From Vulcanimicrobiota bacterium (GTDB taxonomy: Bacteria > Vulcanimicrobiota > JAJTBE01): a stretch of 64,000 bases of DNA. The position numbers were made by a program, and so were the translations under genes. The stretch lies in the NCBI GenBank assembly GCA_021107945.1, contig JAIORV010000160.1, positions 1 through 64,000 of the forward strand, in the 5' to 3' direction. Shown here in pieces: positions 18,597-46,005 of the stretch (positions within the stretch are counted from its first letter, which is position 1; each line of letters begins with the position of its first letter). The notes beneath the pieces were generated by a model, which saw only the letters and a list, made by a program, of their open reading frames with translations, did not search any database and had not been told where the DNA came from.

Positions 18597-18882
18597 AGCA
18601 GCCTCCTCGATTGTTTGTTTATTATAGTACTTCCAATTAATTTTGTTCGAAAGCCCTGAATTCCCCCTCCATTTTTGGTTATATGTGTGAGGAAACAGAC
18701 ATTTATTTTTTTGATCTACGGCGAAACGCCACAGCCACCTATGTTGTTATAATGGTGGGGGTGGCGTCCCGCCGCCCAAATTACAAGACATTATTTTCGA
18801 AAAATAGCTAATACAAAATAAAAAGATATATAGGAATGAAGTTGAATAATATATAAAATCAAATAACCGGAGATAGGCCTTT

Positions 18883-21800
18883 ATGAAAGATAAAAGCAAA
18901 TTGGACTTCGAAATTCCACGAGACCTTCCATATTATATCCAGAAAAAACAGGCGGTATTATTCGTCGGAGCGGGGCTTTCGAAAGCGGCGGGATTACCAT
19001 TATGGGGCGAATTTATAGAGATATTGTTAAAAGATTTTGACACTAAGCCCCAGACTGCTGACTTCCTTGACATTGTTGAATACTATGAAAACGAATTCGG
19101 CCGCCCTCGTCTTATGGAAAAATTTCATGATATATTCGGAGCGAGAGGCATAAAGCTCACAGAGGCTCACAAGATAATCGCCAGGCTTCCCTGGAAAACA
19201 ATTGTTACCGGGAACTACGACAGGCTTCTGGAAAAAGCTCTTGAGGAATCGGGAGTTGATTTTAAGACAATTCTAACTAATAAGTCCATTTCTCTGGCAG
19301 CCGGAGATAAGATCAACCTTCTCAAGATGCACGGAGATGTGGATCTGCCTGAATCGATCGTTATATCCCGCACTGATTATGATGAATACAGAAACAAGAA
19401 TTCCTCCCTGATAAACCACCTGCGAAGCCTGATTACCACAAATCCGTTCTTCTTCGTTGGCTTCTCTCTCACGGATCCCAACTTCCGCCTTATCATGAAC
19501 GAGGTATATCAGGATTTGAAGGAATATCAGCGAATGAACTTCGCCCTGTGCGCCGGAATTGATAAATACCAACGGAAGCAATGGGAAAAAAGAAACATCA
19601 AGGCGGTGGATATACTCAATTGGAGTAACTTGACTCCCTTTTTCAAGAGGTTGGAAGAGAAAATTAAAATAGACCCCATTTCCATTCCACGGAGCTCTTT
19701 TGACTCTATAGCAAAAAGGTGGCGGAAAAAGGTTCACGACGGTGAAAAACAGCTTGACCCCAGAGGCATATTCCAACTTGTTCATTCTACAGGGATAATT
19801 AACCTAGAGGATATTTATGTTGAGCCTTTTCTGTCTCCGGGGGGAAAAGCAATGCCTATTTCCATCAGGAGTATCGCGGAATTCAATGCCAAAGATGCCC
19901 TGAGATTAATGTCGGAGGATGACGACACCGATATTAAAAGCATCAGCTCGGGCATATACAGAAGCCAGATTACAAGAGAAGGAAAGAAGCATATATTTCT
20001 TCACGAATCTGAAAGAAAAAAGTTCGAGGAGTTACACGGAAAAAAAATCGGCGATCTTCATGCTCTTGAAAGCCTACTCAGGTTTGAAAAGGATCTCGGT
20101 TTCATAGAGTTTGCAAAACACTGTCCCCGCGCTGTTATTATCGGCGATCCAGGATCGGGAAAAAGCGTCCTGTTACAGTACATGGCATACATATCTTCAG
20201 GAGAAAATAAAATCTTTCGCGATAAATACCTCCCCCTGAGGATTCCCCTGAAAAAATACTCCGCTCACCTTATGAAATCCCCGCAACATGTGCCGCTCAA
20301 AGATTTTATAGTTGAATATGTGCGAAAGAATATCGAGAACGAAGATTATATGGAAGCATTTCTATGGAAGAAAGTTGACGAAGGTAAGGTTCTCCTCCTT
20401 TTTGACGGCGTTGATGAGGTTTCGACCTTGAAGATGAGGGAAAAAGTATGTGCAGAAATACAAAGAGTCATTGATGACCATCACCGATGTCCCTGCTTCA
20501 TTACATCCCGCCCCGCCGGGTATCAGGGAATGGGGTATTTCAACCTGATACCTCACTTTAACCTGAAGCTTTTTAAAAATGAAGAGATAGAGAAATACCT
20601 GCAAAAATGGTTCGAGTTAAGCGGGCCCTGGTACAACGAAAACGAAAAAATTGCTCTCAATCATGCAGTGACCCTATTCAAGGATATCAAAAAAAATGAG
20701 AGCGTTCTGAAACTAGCTCGCACCCCGCTTCTTCTGTTTATCATCGCTCAGATTCACCGGCAGACTATTAAACTTCCTGAACGACGAGTGGAGTTTTATG
20801 ATGCCGCTGTCAAGACAATCGGCAGATCATGGCTTGAATTAAAGGGATTTCAGGAAGGAGTTGATTTCCCGCCCCTCTCGATTCTACTTGACGGGCTGGA
20901 CCTCGTCGCTTTCAATCTACATAAGGATTACGAGGAAAATATTGCCCCCGAGGATACCGTCAGGGATTGGATTGCCGATTCTTTTTGCACCCGGCGGGGA
21001 TATTCGCGTGAGAAGGGATTGGAGGAAGCCGAAGATTTCCTGGAGGCGGTCAGGGAGAAGGTAGGTATCCTGGTTGAGAAAGAAACGGGCAAATACGGAT
21101 TTATTCACCTGACATTCCAGGAATACTTCGCCGCCCGGCATCTATCCGTTGGAAAGGGAACATCATTTGCCACGGATTTCGTCAGGAAATGCAGGCATAA
21201 TCCCCGGTGGAAGGAGGTTATTATGCTTATGGTGGGAATGGCGAATCCAGCTCTTGCCGACAGACTACTCCGCGCCATAATGGAGCCTCCCTCCCTATAT
21301 GAGGATTTCCTTCACCGGGATCTTTTCCTGGCGTCCGAATGCCTCAAGGATCAGCCCGACGGGCTGAGTATTGAAAGGAAACAAGAGATTACTAATAAGC
21401 TTATTGAGGTAATCCAGGGAGATAATGTCGCCATAGCAAGAGGAGAAGCTTTTAATCTCCTTCCTTTTGGGGCTCCCATTGAGTCCTGGAAGAAAGAGGA
21501 CAGGAATTGGATGATGAAAAGACTGGTGAATGAAGATTCAGATGTCCGCCAATCCGCCGTTGAATATTTCACCCAAGCCGCCCCCGACGACCCTGAAATA
21601 AGAAATGAAATGAAGAAAAGACTGGGGGATGAAAATTGGCGTATCCGCAATTCCGCCGTTGAATATTTCACTCAAACCGCCCCCGACGACCCTGAAATAA
21701 GAAATGAAATGAAGAAAAGACTGGGGGATGAAAATTGGCGTATCCGCAATTCCGCCGTTGAATATTTCACTCAAACCGCCCCCGACGACCCTGAAATAAG

Positions 21801-22980
21801 AAATGAAATGAAGAAAAGACTGGGGGATGAAAATTGGCGTATCCGCAATTCCGCCGTTGAATATTTCACCCAAACCGCCTCCGGCGACCCTGAAATAAGA
21901 AATGAAATTATGAAAAGGCTGGCGGATGAATGTGAGGCTGTCCGCTATTCCGCCGTTCAATATTTCACCCAAACCGCCCCCGACGACCCTGAAATAAGAA
22001 ATGAAATTATGAAAAGACTGGGGGATGAAAATTGGTCTGTCAGCAATTCCGCCTTTGAATATTTCACCCAAACCGCCCCCGACGACCCTGAAATAAGAAA
22101 GGAAATGATGAAAAGGCTGGGGGATGAAGATTCAAGTGTCCGCTATTTCGCCGTTCAATATTTCACTCAAATCTCCCCCGAAGACACTGAAATAAGAAAA
22201 GTAATACGTAATAAAATTATGGAAAGACTGGGGGATAAAGATTTAATTGTCCGCAATTCCGCCGTTGAATATTTCACCCAAACCGCCCCCGACGACCCTG
22301 AAATAAGAAAAATAATAAGTAATAAAATTTTGGAAAGAATGGAAATTATGAAAAGAATGGGGGGTAAAGATTTAATTATCGGCGCTCCCGCCGTTCAATA
22401 TTTATTCCAAACCGGCCCCGACGACCCTGAAATAAGAAAAGTAATAAGTAATAAAATTATGGAAAGAAAGGAAATTATGAAAAGCCTGGGGGATGAAGAT
22501 TCAAATATCCGCAATTCCGCCGTTAAATATTTCACCCAAACCGCCCCCGACGACCCTGAAATAAGAAAGGAAATGATGAAAAGGCTGGGGGATGAAGATG
22601 AGGATGTCCGTTTATCCGCCGTTCAATATTTCGCCAAAACCGCCCCCGACGACCCTGAAATAAGAAATAAAATGATGAAAAGGCTGGAGGATAATAATTC
22701 AGATGTCCGCCTTTCCGCCTTTGTATATTTTACAAAAGCCATTAGCAAAGACAAAAAATTTGCAAAACAGATATTGGATTTTATTCAACGAAAGCCCGAA
22801 ATTCTTATTTTGACCCCTGCGTTAATCCCTGACGTTGCAAGGTCCATAAAAAATCACAAGTTTATATCCGATGAATACAAAAAAAGAAGACCCCATTTCC
22901 CGGCAAATGACAAAGAATCATTAGATCATATATACTACAATCTCCTTCTCGAAACCCTCAAACTTGTGGAGGCTGACTAA
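18883..22980 (+). CDS. SIR2-NACHT-HEAT NLR-like protein, probable anti-phage defence
   Basis: 1365 residues. N-terminal SIR2 domain (~15-270): NAD-binding VLFVGAGLSKAAGLPLW, TGNYDRLLE, catalytic-type KMHGDVD (His ~150), TTNPFFFVGFSLTDPNF. Central NACHT ATPase: Walker A GDPGSGKS at 421-428, Walker B LLLFDGVDE at ~505, sensor PCFITSRPAGY, and LTFQEYFAARHLS at the end of the helical region. C-terminus: 11 full HEAT-like repeats (892-1278), mostly 33 residues, plus a partial one. SIR2-STAND proteins such as Avs5 and NACHT proteins defend against phage by depleting NAD+ once the C-terminal repeats sense an invader; this protein fits that plan. It stands alone between ade and repeat-rich spacer. 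No partner gene is needed for this class. Function is inferred from architecture. Confidence 0.9.
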   Translation: MKDKSKLDFEIPRDLPYYIQKKQAVLFVGAGLSKAAGLPLWGEFIEILLKDFDTKPQTADFLDIVEYYENEFGRPRLMEKFHDIFGARGIKLTEAHKIIARLPWKTIVTGNYDRLLEKALEESGVDFKTILTNKSISLAAGDKINLLKMHGDVDLPESIVISRTDYDEYRNKNSSLINHLRSLITTNPFFFVGFSLTDPNFRLIMNEVYQDLKEYQRMNFALCAGIDKYQRKQWEKRNIKAVDILNWSNLTPFFKRLEEKIKIDPISIPRSSFDSIAKRWRKKVHDGEKQLDPRGIFQLVHSTGIINLEDIYVEPFLSPGGKAMPISIRSIAEFNAKDALRLMSEDDDTDIKSISSGIYRSQITREGKKHIFLHESERKKFEELHGKKIGDLHALESLLRFEKDLGFIEFAKHCPRAVIIGDPGSGKSVLLQYMAYISSGENKIFRDKYLPLRIPLKKYSAHLMKSPQHVPLKDFIVEYVRKNIENEDYMEAFLWKKVDEGKVLLLFDGVDEVSTLKMREKVCAEIQRVIDDHHRCPCFITSRPAGYQGMGYFNLIPHFNLKLFKNEEIEKYLQKWFELSGPWYNENEKIALNHAVTLFKDIKKNESVLKLARTPLLLFIIAQIHRQTIKLPERRVEFYDAAVKTIGRSWLELKGFQEGVDFPPLSILLDGLDLVAFNLHKDYEENIAPEDTVRDWIADSFCTRRGYSREKGLEEAEDFLEAVREKVGILVEKETGKYGFIHLTFQEYFAARHLSVGKGTSFATDFVRKCRHNPRWKEVIMLMVGMANPALADRLLRAIMEPPSLYEDFLHRDLFLASECLKDQPDGLSIERKQEITNKLIEVIQGDNVAIARGEAFNLLPFGAPIESWKKEDRNWMMKRLVNEDSDVRQSAVEYFTQAAPDDPEIRNEMKKRLGDENWRIRNSAVEYFTQTAPDDPEIRNEMKKRLGDENWRIRNSAVEYFTQTAPDDPEIRNEMKKRLGDENWRIRNSAVEYFTQTASGDPEIRNEIMKRLADECEAVRYSAVQYFTQTAPDDPEIRNEIMKRLGDENWSVSNSAFEYFTQTAPDDPEIRKEMMKRLGDEDSSVRYFAVQYFTQISPEDTEIRKVIRNKIMERLGDKDLIVRNSAVEYFTQTAPDDPEIRKIISNKILERMEIMKRMGGKDLIIGAPAVQYLFQTGPDDPEIRKVISNKIMERKEIMKSLGDEDSNIRNSAVKYFTQTAPDDPEIRKEMMKRLGDEDEDVRLSAVQYFAKTAPDDPEIRNKMMKRLEDNNSDVRLSAFVYFTKAISKDKKFAKQILDFIQRKPEILILTPALIPDVARSIKNHKFISDEYKKRRPHFPANDKESLDHIYYNLLLETLKLVEAD
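21556..22716 (+). repeat. Coding tandem repeats of the NACHT protein, 99-bp unit
   Basis: Eleven consecutive units with the core YFTQTAPDDPEIR. Units 1-6 and 10-11 are 99 bp; unit 7 is 111 bp; units 8 and 9 are 129 bp. Units 2 (21655-21753) and 3 (21754-21852) are identical over all 99 bp, and unit 1 differs by two bases, so copies arose very recently or are homogenised by recombination. All length variants are multiples of three. This is protein-coding tandem repetition, not a CRISPR array: there are no unique spacers. Confidence 0.95.
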
Positions 22981-23494
22981 GCTGTTTTAAAAGAAACGAA
23001 TTTATTCAGACCCCTCACTGTAGGAGAGCCTTCCAGGCTCGATTGTCGTGGCAAGATGCCACTCCTGCAAGAGGACTGAATACTCACAAAAAACATGTTG
23101 TTTTTAGCATTTATTCAGACCTCTCTTGTGGGAAGAACTCTACAATCTCGATTTTATGCCGTTTTCAGGCTGGTCGGGAGACCGACACATATCGAAGAAT
23201 TTCCTGAATGTTGTCCTGAGAGATCGCTATTCATGGATAGAGATCCTTCGCTGTGGAATAAATCGGAGAAATGTGAATCTCGTTCTTGAGAAAGGTTTGT
23301 TTGTTCAAGAAAATCGATCGTTTTCCGCTCAGGATGACAAAATGCGCAAGCCTTGTTATTGTGAACCTTTGTGGCCTTTGTAGTTAAAGACATCTTTGAA
23401 AACGAAAAAGTTTGATCCGAACAGATATGTATGTTTATTTAACAAAATCCCCGGTGGTATTTTTCAAAAGAATTAAACAACTATTCATTTATCT
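22981..23494. other. Repeat-rich spacer downstream of the NACHT gene
   Basis: No convincing gene. 23021-23069 is a BIME-like pair: GTAGGAGAGCCTTCCAGGCT-CGAT followed by the inverted TGTCGTGGCAAGATGCCACT-CCTGC, each with its own hairpin. 23111-23190 is a copy of an 80-bp repeat ending GGTCGGGAGACCG whose inverted partner lies at 33640-33720. 23195-23250 resembles the common TCCTGA…GGATCC spacer repeat, and 23361-23390 is a degenerate CTTTGTGG copy. Two short open frames here (near 23095-23383) are built from these repeats and are not credible genes. Confidence 0.65.
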
Positions 23495-24718
23495 CTAATA
23501 TTCATTTATCTTATTCATTGCCTCATCCCACTGTGTATCCTTGGCGAATTGGAGTTTTGGGTATCTCCAGTCCACCTTGTTCGAGTCGGGAATCTCGGCG
23601 TTTAGACCGTGAATGTTTCTCTTGAAGACTGAATGCTCCTCGGCTATTACTGCCCTTTTAACCGTTGTCATTACAAGCTTGCCGTATGCTTTTAACGTCT
23701 CGTCTTTTATGTCTTTACTTTCCGAGATTTGCTCGGCGAAATGGTAGAGGTCCTTGTAGCCGTAGAAACTTTTTGTCTTCTGGGCAATTTTTCTCAACAC
23801 TTCGTTGGGGGTATCGGTTTTTAATATCTGTTTTGCAAGTGAATTGCATGCATCTTTCAGGTTCGGCATTTTCGACAGATCGGTCGCTGAAATTGTGGAT
23901 ATTGCCCAGCTATCGCTCGCATCATCAACAATTTTCTTTGCAAGCGCTTCCGGTGAGATATCTAGCTTCTGCTTTAACGCGCCGTCCAGATTCTGGAGAT
24001 TTTTCTTTGTGAGGAGAGGAACATATGGCCATCCGTCTGCGCCCTCGTTGTTCTCGGAGGCGACCATGTATTTTGCGTTGTCTCTCAGCTCATACGCAAC
24101 CTCGGTTGAAGCCATGAGGCATGCATCGAATCCCAGGACATCGATCTGCCTGCCCGTATCTTTTTGTGCCAGATCCAGGCCTTCTTTTATCTGCGGCGTG
24201 GTCATGTCCCTATAATGGCCGTAGTCGGAAACCGCGCCCCTCCAGGCACCGCCATGATCAGATATAATAAGGGCATAATGCTCGGCGGGATATTTTTCCA
24301 TGCCAAATTTGATAAAATCTGCAAGCTCTTTGGGACTCGCCATGTTTGTACTGCCCATATCCTCGAGAACCGGGGATTTTATCTCGTCCATGTTATCGTC
24401 TTTTATAAGGTAATATCTCTTGCAATCTCTGTTCCCTTTATCCAGTTGGACAACAAGGTTCATATTGGCGGTTGAGCCTACCGATTCCATTTCGTTAACA
24501 TCACTTACCATATATGGCGTCAGGTTGTTATCACCGGCGGCATAATGAAGAATTGTCCACTTTTTAGGAGCTTTTGCATCTTTCCCGGAGTCAAGATCGA
24601 CGGAATCTTTGATTGTATGTTCTGATGTATTCTTTTCCGCGCTTTTTTCCGCATTTGACTTCGTTGATGACTGCGTCAATGCGTTTGTTGCACCGGGATT
24701 GATTCTTCCGATTGTCAT
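23495..24718 (-). CDS. Clostripain-family (C11) cysteine peptidase
   Basis: 407 residues from the chosen ATG at 24718 (GAGGGG 7 nt upstream; the frame is open further back but without a ribosome site). A low-complexity polar N-terminus (NALTQSSTKSNAEKSAEKN) precedes the C11 core: WTILHYAAGDNNLTPYMVSDVNEME, catalytic His in ALIISDHGGAW and catalytic Cys in DVLGFDACLMAS. C11 enzymes cut after Arg or Lys and may self-process. No signal peptide is visible although most relatives are exported, so the N-terminal tail may direct another route or the enzyme may be cytoplasmic. It is 121 bp downstream of the P-type ATPase gene on the same strand. Confidence 0.88.
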   Translation of the reverse strand: MTIGRINPGATNALTQSSTKSNAEKSAEKNTSEHTIKDSVDLDSGKDAKAPKKWTILHYAAGDNNLTPYMVSDVNEMESVGSTANMNLVVQLDKGNRDCKRYYLIKDDNMDEIKSPVLEDMGSTNMASPKELADFIKFGMEKYPAEHYALIISDHGGAWRGAVSDYGHYRDMTTPQIKEGLDLAQKDTGRQIDVLGFDACLMASTEVAYELRDNAKYMVASENNEGADGWPYVPLLTKKNLQNLDGALKQKLDISPEALAKKIVDDASDSWAISTISATDLSKMPNLKDACNSLAKQILKTDTPNEVLRKIAQKTKSFYGYKDLYHFAEQISESKDIKDETLKAYGKLVMTTVKRAVIAEEHSVFKRNIHGLNAEIPDSNKVDWRYPKLQFAKDTQWDEAMNKINEY

Positions 24719-24839
24719 GTTTCTTCCCCTCTCATTACGTTGAAAGAAATATATAGGTCTCTTTTCTTCTATAATTATAATTGAGTTAGTGGCCAAAAAC
24801 AATTAAAAACATGTTAACATATGGTAAAGAATATCGATG

Positions 24840-36680: not shown

Positions 36681-38933
36681 ATGAAATGTCCCGTTTGTGG
36701 AACTGACAATAAAGATACGGCCACATTCTGTTTTTCCTGCGGTTATGCATTATTGCAGGGATCCAACGTTTTTCGCGCATCAAGAAATCCCACCGTACCC
36801 ACCGAGTCTTCTACCGTAAACCAAAGTCCTCCTGAACAAAGCTCCCAAGCTTCTTCTCCTCCACCTGCCGGAGCAAGTTCTCAAGATTCATCTCACCTAT
36901 CTCCGAAAACTATCCATAAAGGGCGTTATCAGATTAACAGAAAATTGGGGCAGGGAGGTATGGGTGAAGTCTATCTTGCAAATGACACAGTGATGCATTC
37001 AAAAGTTGTGGTCAAGGAGATGAAGTCCAAGAACGCCTCCACAAATGACAGAATATATTTTGAGAAACGATTCGAGGAGGAAGCACGACTCCTATTCCGC
37101 CTGAAACATAACAATCTCCCCAGGGTAACTGATCTCTTCAAGGAAGGAGAAAGTTATTTCCTGGTTATGGAATATATCGAGGGAGAAAACCTGGAAGATG
37201 TTGCCGGAAAACGCCCGGACGGACGAATAACAGTGGATGAATGTATTGAATGGATGGGGACGGCTTTGGAAATTCTCAAGTATCTTCATGGTCAGAAACC
37301 TCCGGTTGTACACAGGGATATTAAACCCTCAAACATTATGCTGACGGAAACCGGTGATATATTTATTGTGGATTTCGGCATCGCCCGGACTGTGGGGACA
37401 AGAACATATACCCTGGTAGGCACTCCCGGGTTCATCTCACCGGAGCACATGACAGGCAAGCTCTGCCTTTCGTCGGATATATATAGCCTGGGGGCAACAC
37501 TTCACTTCCTGTTGACTGGAGATAATCCACAAAACCGGGATCCCTTCGACTTCCCTCCCCTATCGAAATACCGCGACGATATACCTGAAGGCTTACAGGA
37601 TATATTTGATAAGATGATTGCAATGAAGAGGGATGATCGTTACCGGAGGGTGGAAGATGTTCTGACAGACCTGGCAAACATCAAATGCATCCTATCCCCT
37701 GCCTCTCCATTTTCTGTAGGAGGGACGTCCCCGTCCCGATTTTTGGAGACGTCCCCGTCCCGAGATCCCGAACAACAGCCTTCCTCCGCCATGCCTCCTT
37801 CTGAATCACCGGCAATGGCAGATCTTCTCCCCGCTCCTGTAAGACCGCAAAAAAAACGTACACCAATCATTCCTCTTGTTATACTTATTGCATGTATAAT
37901 TACAACTGCAGTATTGTTTGTATATACGAGAAATAAGACAAAATCCGGAAAAACGGTTCTCCCTTCTTCAGGAGGAATGTCCTCATCCCAATACCCCGAT
38001 AAACAAACTCATTCTATTTCTCCGGGAATACAAAATGAACCACAATTAAAAAAATGGAAATGTCTGAGGACGCTAAAAGGGCATTCTTCTGATGTTAATT
38101 CAGTTGCATTCTCCCCTGACGGAAAATATATGGCGAGCGGAAGTAATGATAAAACAATTAAAATGTGGAATAAAGATACGGGAAAATGTTTGAGGACACT
38201 GAAAGGGCATTCTTCCGATATTAATTCCGTTAAATTCTCCCCCGACAGCAAATATATCGCAAGCGGAAGTTATGATCACACAATAAAAATATGGGATGCA
38301 GATTCCGGTGAATGTTTGAGGACACTGAAGGGGCATTCCGGTTCCGTTTATTCCGTTGCGTTCTCCCCCGACGGTAAATATATCGCATCGGGCGGTTGGG
38401 ATAAAACAATAAAAATATGGGATGCAGATACGGGCGAATGTCTGAAAACCCTGATAGGCCATACTCTTTGGGTTCGTTCGATCGCATTTTCCCCCGACGG
38501 AAAGAATATCGCAACAGGCAGTTCTGACAAAACAATTAAAATATGGGCAATAGATACGGGTGAATGTCTGAAGACCCTCAAAGGTCATTCCGATTATGTT
38601 ATCTCCGTCGCGTTTTCCCCCGACGGTCAATATCTCGCATCCGGTGGCTGGGATAAGACAATAAAAATATGGAATAAAGATACGGGTGAATGTTTGAAGA
38701 CCCTGGAAGGTTATTCTATCGACATAGAATCTGTTGCCTTCTCCCCCGACGGGAAACATATTGCATCCGGAGGTCGTGATAATACAATAAGAATATGGAA
38801 TAAAGATACAGGTAAATGCTCCGGTATCCTTGAAGGACATTCCGGTTGGGTTTTTTCCGTCACATTTTCCCCGGACGGCAGATACATTGCATCGGGAAGT
38901 AAGGACAAAACAATTAAAATATGGAGACGGTAA
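36681..38933 (+). CDS. Ser/Thr protein kinase with zinc ribbon, membrane helix and WD40 propeller
   Basis: 750 residues. Zinc ribbon (CPVCGTDNKDTATFCFSCG, 3-21); Ser/Pro-rich linker; Hanks-type kinase (~77-340) with GQGGMGEVYLA, lysine in VVVKEMK, HRDIKPSNIM and VDFGIARTVG; linker; one membrane helix (~396-415, IIPLVILIACIITTAVLFV); seven WD40 repeats (~457-750), e.g. CLRTLKGHSSDVNSVAFSPD and DKTIKIW. Seven blades close a full propeller, so the extracytoplasmic part is probably a ligand- or partner-binding sensor. The intracellular juxtamembrane linker contains one complete REP repeat in frame, plus a second partial copy, and a diverged one lies just outside the helix. No phosphatase gene adjoins it; a PP2C-type phosphatase is at 60.9 kb. 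Confidence 0.95.
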   Translation: MKCPVCGTDNKDTATFCFSCGYALLQGSNVFRASRNPTVPTESSTVNQSPPEQSSQASSPPPAGASSQDSSHLSPKTIHKGRYQINRKLGQGGMGEVYLANDTVMHSKVVVKEMKSKNASTNDRIYFEKRFEEEARLLFRLKHNNLPRVTDLFKEGESYFLVMEYIEGENLEDVAGKRPDGRITVDECIEWMGTALEILKYLHGQKPPVVHRDIKPSNIMLTETGDIFIVDFGIARTVGTRTYTLVGTPGFISPEHMTGKLCLSSDIYSLGATLHFLLTGDNPQNRDPFDFPPLSKYRDDIPEGLQDIFDKMIAMKRDDRYRRVEDVLTDLANIKCILSPASPFSVGGTSPSRFLETSPSRDPEQQPSSAMPPSESPAMADLLPAPVRPQKKRTPIIPLVILIACIITTAVLFVYTRNKTKSGKTVLPSSGGMSSSQYPDKQTHSISPGIQNEPQLKKWKCLRTLKGHSSDVNSVAFSPDGKYMASGSNDKTIKMWNKDTGKCLRTLKGHSSDINSVKFSPDSKYIASGSYDHTIKIWDADSGECLRTLKGHSGSVYSVAFSPDGKYIASGGWDKTIKIWDADTGECLKTLIGHTLWVRSIAFSPDGKNIATGSSDKTIKIWAIDTGECLKTLKGHSDYVISVAFSPDGQYLASGGWDKTIKIWNKDTGECLKTLEGYSIDIESVAFSPDGKHIASGGRDNTIRIWNKDTGKCSGILEGHSGWVFSVTFSPDGRYIASGSKDKTIKIWRR
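37715..37764 (+). repeat. Class A REP inside the kinase coding sequence
   Basis: A full REP (TGTAGGAGGGACGTCC then CCGTCCCGAT, 37715-37740) followed by a partial second copy (GGAGACGTCCCCGTCCCGA, 37745-37763). Translated in frame it gives VGGTSPSRFLETSPSRD in the linker before the membrane helix. Confidence 0.9.
37969..38000 (+). repeat. Diverged REP copy inside the kinase coding sequence
   Basis: CAGGAGGAATGTCCTCATCC then CAATACCCCGAT: a decayed class A REP that lost the GTAG head but keeps the AGGAGG..TGTCC..CATCC order. It encodes GGMSSSQYPD between the membrane helix and the WD40 domain. Confidence 0.55.
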
Positions 38934-43344: not shown

Positions 43345-46005
43345 TCACCCGGATTTACTTTCCGCTTCGCCAAGCTCTCTTTTTATTTCCTTGAAGGTAT
43401 ATGCTTCGACAACGTCTCCCGGTTGCATGGCGCCAAATTTTTCGATTGTAAGACCACATTCAAAATTGGCACCGACTTCTTTGACATCATCTTTGAACCT
43501 GCGAAGTGAATCGATTTTAGCCTCGTAAATCACAACTCCGTCACGAATAATACGAGTATCTGAACCTCTGATAATTTTTCCCTCGGTAACATAACAACCG
43601 GCGATTACTCCGATCTTCGAAACCTTGAAGGTCGCTCTTACTTCGGCACGACCCAACATTACTTCCTTATATTCAGGATCGAGAAGTCCCGTCATCGCCG
43701 CCTTGATATCTTCAATTATATGATAGATTACGCGGTATAGTCTGATATCAACTTTCTCTTGATCCCCCATGCGTTTGGTAATGGGATCCGGCCTTACGTT
43801 ATAACCGATAATAATTGCATCGGATGCCGTGGCAAGCATCACATCAGACTCGCTGATAGCGCCTACTCCACCATGAATGACATTGATTTGCACCTCACTA
43901 GTTGAGAGACGCTGGAGAGAATGTCTTAATGCCTCAAGAGCTCCCTGTGTATCAGCTTTCAGAATAATCTTGAGATCTTTTACTTCTCCCTCTTGCATCT
44001 GGCGGAAAAGATCATCCAGAGATGTACGGGAGTAAGTTTCAAGTCTCTTTGTCCTCATATCGTCTTTCCGTTTTTCGGAAATTTCTCTGGCCTCTTTCTC
44101 ATCATCGACTACCAATAGATGATCGCCCGCCTGAGGGACTCCCGATAGTCCTGTAACGACTGCAGGCATCGAAGGGAAGGCTTTCTTTATCCTCTTTCCC
44201 TTATCATTGAGCATAGCCTTTATTCTTCCCCACTCATTACCTACTATAGCGCAATCCCCTATTTTGAGTGTTCCATTTTGTACAATTACCGTTGCAACCG
44301 GCCCCAGTCCTGTATCCATTGAGGATTCGATAATAGTGCCTTCGGCCTTCCTGTGTGGATTTGCCTTCAGCTCCTGCATATCTGCAATAAGCAAATTCAT
44401 TTCCAGCAAATCATCAATTCCGATTTTGGTTTTTGCTGAAACTGGAACCGTTACGGCCTCTCCTCCCCAGTCCTCTGCAATGATATCATACTCTGCTAAT
44501 TGCTGTTTGACTCGATCGGGATTAGCATTTGGCTTGTCAATTTTATTTATGGCAATAATGATAGGGACATTTGCTGCTTTTGCATGGTTGATAGCTTCAA
44601 TTGTCTGAGGCATAACCCCGTCATCTGCAGCCACAACAAGAATCGCAATGTCCGTCACTTTGGCTCCACGGGCACGCATAGCAGTAAACGCTTCATGTCC
44701 CGGGGTATCAATAAATACAACTTTTCTGTCACCCATTTCCACGACGGATGCTCCCACGCTCTGTGTAATACCGCCGCTTTCTTGCTCGGCAATATTTGTT
44801 TCTCTTATGCAGTCAAGCAGGGATGTTTTACCGTGGTCAACGTGTCCCAGAACAGTTACAACCGGGGGTCTTGGTGAGAGCAAAGCTGGATCGTCTTCAA
44901 TCTCTTCCGGTTTTGGCAGTTCAACCTTTGTACGTTCAACTCTGAAACCATATCTTTTGACTACTCCTGCGGCAAGATCAAAGTTAAGCAACTGATTGAT
45001 CGAAGCCATAATCCCCTGTTTCATGAGCAACTTAATAATCTCATTTGCGGGGACTTCCAGTTTTCTTGAAAGGTCGCCAACTGTCATGGTTTCTGGAAGT
45101 TCCATCCATTTTATTGTTGACTCCTTCATTGTAACTTCAGGAGCTCTTCTTTTTCTTGCTCTTCTGCCATATTTTGAGTATCTAAAAGTCCTGGTCTGCG
45201 TTCTCGTAATTTTTTTGGTTACCTTTCCCTTTTTCACTTCTTTGGCCTTTGTCGATTCTTTGGCCTTTACCGACTCTTTGGCCTTTACCGACTCTTTGGC
45301 CTTTACCGACTCTTTGGCCTTCATTGGTACCTCTACCCTGGGACGTATCACATCCGTTATATTCTTCAAAGAAGATTCCTTAGCCTTTGGTCTATGTCCC
45401 TTATGCCGCTTCTTTTTTTGCTTGGACTTCCCTTGTTCCATAACCTCGACTGGTTTTTTGTCTCCTTCGGTTGCCGGGGCCGACTTTTCTTGTCCTATTA
45501 CGACCTTTACAGTCTTTTTAGGCATTCCGGCTTTCCCGGGATGTGGTGTCTTTTCGGAAACTTTAACTATGCCGGGGGTTTCAACCTTTGTGGGTTCCTC
45601 CGGTCTTTCCCGCTTGACAGGCTGCGCCGGCTTTGGGGCGAACTTTGTTTCAACCGGCTTCTTACCATGTTCATGTTCCACTTTAATAGGAGTTGTCGGT
45701 TTTACTGGCAACTCTTCTTTTTTCACTTTCTCTTCCATGGTTTTCTTCTGCTCGTCAATTTTCTTCTGCTTGGCCAACTTTTCAACCTTTTCCTTTATCA
45801 CCCGCCTGGGTATATATTTCTTCCCTTCTTTTTTGGCCCTCCTCATTCTTCGAAATTCAAGAATAATCTCATTGGCGGTCGCCTGATCCACCGATGAAGA
45901 ATGAGACTTTATGGTAACTCCTATTATGTCTTTGATGCTATCCACCAGTTCTTTATTGGATACACCGACAATTTTTGAAAGATCGTAGATTCTAACTTTT
46001 GACAT
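43345..46005 (-). CDS. infB: Translation initiation factor IF-2
   Basis: 886 residues. IF2_N motif at the start ([21 protein letters not shown]), a long charged linker (~60-290), a second IF2_N segment ([25 protein letters not shown]), then the GTPase core with G1 [10 protein letters not shown]3 DTPGHEAF, G4 NKID, followed by domains II, III and IV. It delivers initiator tRNA to the 30S. The linker contains four near-perfect 18-bp repeats coding AKESVK (45241-45321). Operon: between ylxR and rbfA, spacing 36 and 5 bp. Large opposite-strand open frames across the linker are composition artefacts. Confidence 0.98.

Follow-up and report, generated by a model that had tools for sequence, protein, structure and literature searches.

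The DNA window analysed here, a stretch of 64,000 nucleotides from a Vulcanimicrobiota bacterium (contig JAIORV010000160.1 of assembly GCA_021107945.1), contains a gene encoding a protein that joins a SIR2 domain, a NACHT module and an array of HEAT repeats (Table 1). Its open reading frame (ORF) runs over 1365 codons without internal stops, from the ATG at 18883 to a stop codon ending at 22980, and a GGAG motif (18869-18872) is found 10 bases 5' of the ATG. The initial annotation, made without database searches, had proposed that these three parts are present in one protein, and the Pfam matches to SIR2_2 (98 bits), NACHT (45 bits), HEAT (92 bits) and HEAT_2 (91 bits), all exceeding the curated cut-offs, bear this out. 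The effector is located at the N-terminus and the repeat sensor at the C-terminus of a single chain, as in NOD-like receptor (NLR) proteins. The gene is a single one, without a partner gene, and its domain plan fits the annotated logic of a bacterial NLR-like protein with a NACHT switch and a HEAT sensor. All our results lead us to describe it as an intact bacterial protein of the NLR-like kind that is armed with SIR2, a new combination probably assembled independently of similar ones.

Table 1. Features of the SIR2-NACHT-HEAT locus (positions in the window; aa, amino acids of the encoded protein).
Feature	Position	Strand	Basis or remark
SIR2-NACHT-HEAT ORF	18883..22980	+	1365 aa, ATG start, one intact frame
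SIR2 domain (SIR2_2 / ThsA-like), aa 16-241	18928..19605	+	Pfam, PADLOC ThsA, phmmer 6lhx/8bto
Catalytic Asn111 codon, TGNYD motif	19213..19215	+	alignment to ThsA and phylum relatives
Catalytic His150 codon, MHGD motif	19330..19332	+	alignment to ThsA and phylum relatives
Linker / pre-NACHT region, aa 270-417	19690..20133	+	alignable in part with Azotobacter relative
NACHT core, aa 418-578	20134..20616	+	Pfam NACHT 45 bits; motifs conserved in 42 relatives
Post-NACHT helical region, including FIHLTFQEYF motif aa 740-749	20617..21492	+	conserved columns, AF2
HEAT array, 12 unit cores, aa 880-1294	21520..22764	+	Pfam, TRF, AF2, fold search
C-terminal helical tail, aa 1295-1365	22765..22977	+	AF2 model
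Dispersed intergenic repeat upstream	18708..18809	.	about 40 other genomic matches scored
At least 3 dispersed intergenic repeat elements downstream	about 23000-23089, 23109-23183, 23186-23340	.	

The SIR2_2 match covers aa 106-241 and is the sole one in the proteins of the host genome (5.56 Mb, 215 contigs). The SIR2 part is nearest to ThsA, as indicated by the PADLOC ThsA model (157 bits) and by phmmer matches to the ThsA PDB entries 6lhx and 8bto (114 and 111 bits, respectively), the next matches in these searches being DSR2 and KomC. Its assignment to the NADase type, made initially with a call to check the catalytic residues, is upheld when ThsA and nine SIR2 proteins from the phylum are aligned with it: Asn111 (TGNYD) and His150 (MHGD) are both retained. 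By its sequence, the domain appears to be of the defence-NADase type and is predicted to have NADase activity. An AlphaFold 2 (AF2) model of this part, obtained with few aligned relatives, was of low confidence (about 30-60) and was not used. In a SIR2-NACHT protein of Minicystis rosea (L035, 5611-8985), both catalytic residues are replaced, Asn by Q and His by R, and its SIR2 is a probable pseudo-enzyme effector. SIR2-NACHT fusions can thus carry dead SIR2 domains, which the protein studied here does not.

The NACHT module contains a Walker A motif (GDPGSGKS, aa 421-428), a Walker B motif (LLLFDGVDE, about aa 504-512) and Arg543. When 42 relatives are aligned, G421, P423, G424, G426, K427, D508, D511, E512 and R543 are invariant or nearly so, and F740, H742, T744, F745, E747, Y748 and F749 of the post-NACHT FxHxTFxEYF motif are invariant. 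The AF2 model, computed from this alignment, has a predicted local distance difference test score (pLDDT) mostly between 80 and 96 across aa 400-870, and its top PDB fold matches are NLRP3, NOD2 and NLRC4 (E 5e-12). The region is thus modelled with the nucleotide-binding, helical and winged-helix domains (NBD-HD-WHD) of the NLR-type fold.

The C-terminal array is detected by Tandem Repeats Finder (TRF) with a score of 1091 and a 99-bp period, far above chance. The HEAT array and its 33-residue unit, as initially annotated, are therefore retained, while the claimed regularity is not: successive unit anchors are 33 (six times), 37, 43, 43, 33 and 33 aa apart, so that three internal spacings exceed the unit by 4, 10 and 10 residues. 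DNA identity among unit cores reaches 96-100% for units 2-4 and is 80-92% for most of units 1-11 and 75-85% for unit 9; the repeats thus show the near-identity, or high internal conservation, of fungal NLR sensors. By sequence, the array resembles the engineered alphaRep proteins, and a fold search with its AF2 model (helix pairs throughout, pLDDT 71, higher in units 2-6) returns HEAT solenoids, alphaRep among them.

The differences between repeats are biased towards replacements. Across units 1-11, the proportion of nonsynonymous differences per site (pN) is 0.162 vs 0.086 for synonymous ones (pS), and the 52 changes inferred as a minimum comprise 47 nonsynonymous and 5 synonymous ones, where neutrality would give 12-15 synonymous changes (P 0.009, 0.003 and 0.0009 at kappa 1, 2 and 4). 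The replacements concentrate around a V(I)R pair, at offsets -3, -2, -1, +2 and +6. In the alphaRep library, positions 18, 19, 22, 23, 26 and 30 were randomised, and every interface residue of the A3 binder in one solved complex is on these positions (PMC3754942), which correspond to offsets -2, -1, +2, +3, +6 and +10 when counted from the V of VR. These six positions out of 28 carry 53% of the replacement divergence of the array, against 21% expected by position count. The variable residues would thus occupy a face resembling the alphaRep binding face, and replacement-biased variation at predicted contact sites, as in sensors of the fungal type, is found here with a borderline site bootstrap (see below).

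A similar bias is found in other proteins. TRF finds tandem arrays in 46 of the 88 ORFs scanned, nearly all of them NACHT-related. In 15 non-redundant bacterial NACHT-HEAT arrays besides the one studied, 49% of the replacements are at alphaRep positions, compared to 21% under a rotation null (maximum 38% in 5000 rotations), and their pooled profile correlates with that of the studied array (0.84). In these comparisons, anchoring forces low variation at offsets 0, +1, +4 and +5. At the five most variable offsets of the pooled arrays, picked after inspecting the data, unlike the alphaRep set, which follows from the published design of the library, pN is 0.36 and pS 0.23, vs 0.08 and 0.18 at the remaining offsets. 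Among cyanobacterial NACHT proteins (L051, L060, L071, L078, L081, L083, L088, L094, L095, L105 and L107), 34-residue HEAT arrays of 4-15 near-identical units are observed with the same hypervariable offsets, pN/pS being 3.2 in L105 and 2.1 in L071. One possibility, which we put forward tentatively and would not rate as the likelier outcome, is that bacterial NACHT-HEAT proteins of many phyla are natural alphaRep-like libraries, i.e., arrays homogenised by recombination in which contact residues alone diversify and which are swapped among killer domains, SIR2 NADase included. If so, they would provide a quickly re-tunable recognition repertoire, as in the fungal het NLRs.

The relatives of the protein are distant. 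The 149 genomes searched in the phylum give matches to SIR2 alone or to NACHT alone, and no protein spans both domains. The viral contigs scanned contain no close orthologue, phage records give nothing beyond short SIR2-only or NACHT-only similarity, and the genus is represented by this one genome. A plasmid search recovers one protein with the same architecture, on Azotobacter chroococcum plasmid NZ_CP066311 (L020:3368-6553). This HEAT-repeat protein (WP_233094047) has been annotated with a start 276 bases late (L020 3368-3643), which removes half of SIR2; an earlier in-frame ATG gives back the SIR2 N-terminus. A GTDB scan seeded by the alignment of the two proteins yields 80 NACHT loci from many phyla, with N-termini that include SMEK, TIR, EAD7, bDLD1, NNH2 and, in Minicystis, SIR2. 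A NACHT-HEAT protein of the same phylum (L004, genome G010) has another N-terminus, nucleotide-cyclase-like by eye and without Pfam match at E<=1e-4.

The suggestion that SIR2-NACHT-HEAT proteins may form a separate clade was assessed with a maximum-likelihood tree built from 45 NACHT regions. The studied protein, which has a long branch in this tree (1.72), groups with SMEK-NACHT proteins of Bacteroidales and Lachnospiraceae (support 85/88), the Azotobacter NACHT is placed inside a cyanobacterial NNH2-NACHT / NACHT-HEAT clade (100/100), and the Minicystis one groups with Chloroflexota and Myxococcota. In approximately unbiased (AU) tests, a single clade of the three SIR2-NACHT proteins is rejected (p-AU 2.3e-5), as is a grouping of the studied and Azotobacter proteins (p-AU 6e-4); the constraint uniting the studied and Minicystis proteins is not rejected (p-AU 0.068). 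The separate clade is thus not recovered. As joint placement of the three proteins is rejected, SIR2 was probably fused to NACHT on several occasions: judging from these sequences, there were at least two such events, and probably three. The scatter of the SIR2-NACHT proteins on the tree makes the combination look assembled repeatedly by effector swapping.

The genes flanking the SIR2-NACHT-HEAT gene are housekeeping genes oriented against it on both sides. An operon with the downstream clostripain-family peptidase gene (23495-24802, - strand) was considered and rejected, since this gene is convergent and thus not co-transcribed with it. The intergenic repeats on the two flanks belong to several families with tens of genomic copies each (best 84-97% identity) and are possibly similar to miniature inverted-repeat transposable elements (MITE-like). 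They could have helped the gene to arrive by recombination. No Rfam match is found within 14-28 kb of the window. Elsewhere in the window, an ORF at 36681-38933 (+) encodes a Ser/Thr protein kinase joined to a WD40 propeller of similar repeats (about 6 copies of a 126-bp period, 75% matches), a further sensor-like protein with homogenised repeats, and an 18-bp tandem repeat of 4.6 copies (45239-45321) is located within the ORF of translation initiation factor IF-2 (43345-46005).

The host genome encodes NACHT at six further loci, of which three also have DUF4062, and is thus well equipped with sensors of this kind. The DUF4062-NACHT proteins (L022 and L027 on contig C74, L023 on C119) include one with WD40 and one with TPR, and this DUF4062-NACHT-repeat arrangement is the domain order of human NWD1/TEP1. 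DUF4062 has recently been reported as a TIR-like NADase (PMC13174449). The host genome is also rich in HEAT and WD40 repeat proteins.

We consider it fairly probable that the protein is a stand-alone NLR-like sensor of the STAND (signal transduction ATPases with numerous domains)/NACHT kind, causing NAD+ loss when its fast-evolving HEAT surface binds an invader protein. At rest, NACHT would be ADP-bound and the ThsA-like SIR2 held off. The HEAT solenoid would present its fast-changing residues on one helix per repeat, i.e., on the alphaRep face, and bind there an invader-derived protein, the likeliest ligand being a structural protein of a phage or one of its replication proteins. Contact with it could trigger nucleotide exchange and oligomerisation of NACHT, which would bring SIR2 domains together as an active NADase; the NAD+ level would then drop and the infected cell halt its growth or die. 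Observed here are the domain content, the intact residues for catalysis and nucleotide binding, the homogeneous repeats and the excess of replacements at contact positions, whereas the ligand, the oligomeric state, the NADase activity and the role in phage defence are inferred. Duplication and exchange of repeats might keep the array homogeneous while contact-residue replacements are retained, allowing a quick re-tuning of recognition.

Several of our results weigh against such a defence sensor. Bootstrapping over sites gives a borderline pN/pS (2.5-97.5% range 0.93-9.1, P(<=1) 0.043). Elsewhere in the genome, a HEAT array that is not joined to NACHT (L133, 55% identity) shows the same tendency (0.47 vs 0.30), and raised dN/dS, the nonsynonymous to synonymous rate ratio, between copies is general in protein repeats (PMC5120217), so that such a pattern does not mark immune proteins specifically. 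Furthermore, no defence island surrounds the gene, its neighbours encoding adenine deaminase, P-type ATPase, IF-2, NusA and similar proteins, and the 149 phylum genomes and a single-sequence GTDB scan yield no close orthologue that would allow vertical selection to be assessed. Hypervariability is therefore not claimed as a proof of immune function: the contact-site pattern supports a binding role, and does not by itself support immunity.

Another reading is a housekeeping or stress-signalling STAND scaffold, in which HEAT would bind cellular partners, SIR2 would act on NAD+ or on proteins in a non-lethal way and the repeat variation would reflect the relaxed evolution usual in recently formed repeats. 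The position of the gene amid housekeeping genes, the abundance of HEAT and WD40 repeat proteins in the genome and the fast divergence of repeat copies generally seen under relaxed selection (PMC5120217) agree with it. Relaxed selection nevertheless predicts a pN/pS near 1, while 47:5 is observed, the replacements sit on the binding face instead of being spread, and SIR2 is of the defence NADase type, which makes such a scaffold unlikely. A regulated-cell-death or self/non-self receptor, whose HEAT face would read a variable protein of the host or its kin while SIR2 kills, as in fungal HET-D/HET-E, would account for near-identical repeats with contact-site replacements, the characteristic signature of incompatibility NLRs in fungi (PMC4986451, PMC12222747), and is consistent with the lack of a defence island and with the six other NACHT loci, DUF4062-NACHT proteins included. 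The organism, however, gives no sign on lifestyle, fusion or kin conflict, and STAND SIR2 effectors of known function are anti-phage (PMC12931631); we consider this receptor quite unlikely. Finally, the gene could be decaying or compromised by assembly, i.e., a set of mis-assembled repeats or an inactive remnant transferred between dispersed repeats. Such repeats are indeed present on both flanks, the assembly is fragmented, and short reads assemble near-identical repeats unreliably (PMC12222747). This explanation is very unlikely in view of an open frame of 1365 codons without stops in which every key residue is intact.

How bacterial NLR-like proteins alter their recognition is an open question, to which the studied protein and the 15 other arrays suggest a concrete answer: near-exact copies of a HEAT repeat, with change limited to about six contact positions of the proven alphaRep binding face. 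The protein also adds SIR2 to the effectors that NACHT switches have probably acquired in several independent fusions, an argument against defining clades by domain order. If the arrays prove polymorphic between strains, they would offer a prokaryotic parallel to the fungal incompatibility receptors.

Several known systems resemble the studied protein in part. Avs5 (AVAST type 5, a SIR2-STAND protein) shares with it an N-terminal SIR2_2 NADase, a central STAND NTPase, a C-terminal repeat sensor and the single-gene organisation, and its SIR2 depletes NAD+ on sensing a jumbo-phage protein (PMC12931631). Avs5 has nSTAND3 (PF20720) and TPR/Sel1-type repeats, whereas the studied protein has NACHT (PF05729) and HEAT; nSTAND3 is absent from it even at E<=5, so that the likeness to SIR2-STAND Avs noted initially does not extend to Avs5 itself. 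Membership is likewise rejected with the PADLOC Avs5 model, which matches part of SIR2 only (15.4 bits, profile 108-216 of 771). The bNACHT proteins (Kibby 2023, as cited in PMC12169576), which protect against phage, share the tripartite plan, with a central NACHT and a swappable N-terminal effector; the examples described carry a PD-(D/E)XK nuclease with NCH1 (clade 6) or SNaCT (clade 14) (PMC12169576). In a comparison by domains, the NCH1, PD-(D/E)XK and SNaCT kinds are found neither with Pfam (aa 1-874, E<=5) nor with NCBIfam, and the strongest bNACHT-type match is an EruA fragment (12.8 bits).

Thoeris ThsA has the nearest SIR2 by sequence, with catalytic Asn/His common to both, but it has a STALD/SLOG C-terminal domain where the studied protein has NACHT-HEAT, and no TIR partner is present nearby. 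As ThsA matches stop at aa 236 and no STALD is found, the protein is not a ThsA. DSR2, in which SIR2 is followed by a long helical sensor, matches the SIR2 part (79 bits); it has no NACHT and the similarity is limited to SIR2 (profile 21-263 of 1222), so that membership is rejected here too.

NACHT-HEAT architecture is already known from bacteria and fungi (PMC12258605). The fungal NLRs with high internal conservation (HET-E/HET-D, NACHT-ANK/TPR) have in common with the studied protein a NACHT module, near-identical repeats and replacement-biased contact positions, which in fungi are under positive selection (PMC4986451, PMC12222747). The fungal cases combine WD40, ANK or TPR, and in some cases HEAT, with HET, HeLo and other effectors, while the protein described here is bacterial and combines HEAT with SIR2. 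Repeat conservation of this kind has been noted in fungal HEAT repeats and in bacterial WD40 proteins (PMC12222747); in our partial coverage of the literature, no report of the pattern in bacterial NACHT-HEAT arrays was found. The Azotobacter protein comes closest in plan: its domains follow one another in the same order, its five 34-aa HEAT units are nearly identical and both SIR2 Asn/His are kept. It is, however, 26% identical to the studied one, and the different clade of its NACHT, among NNH2-NACHT proteins, makes an independent assembly likely.

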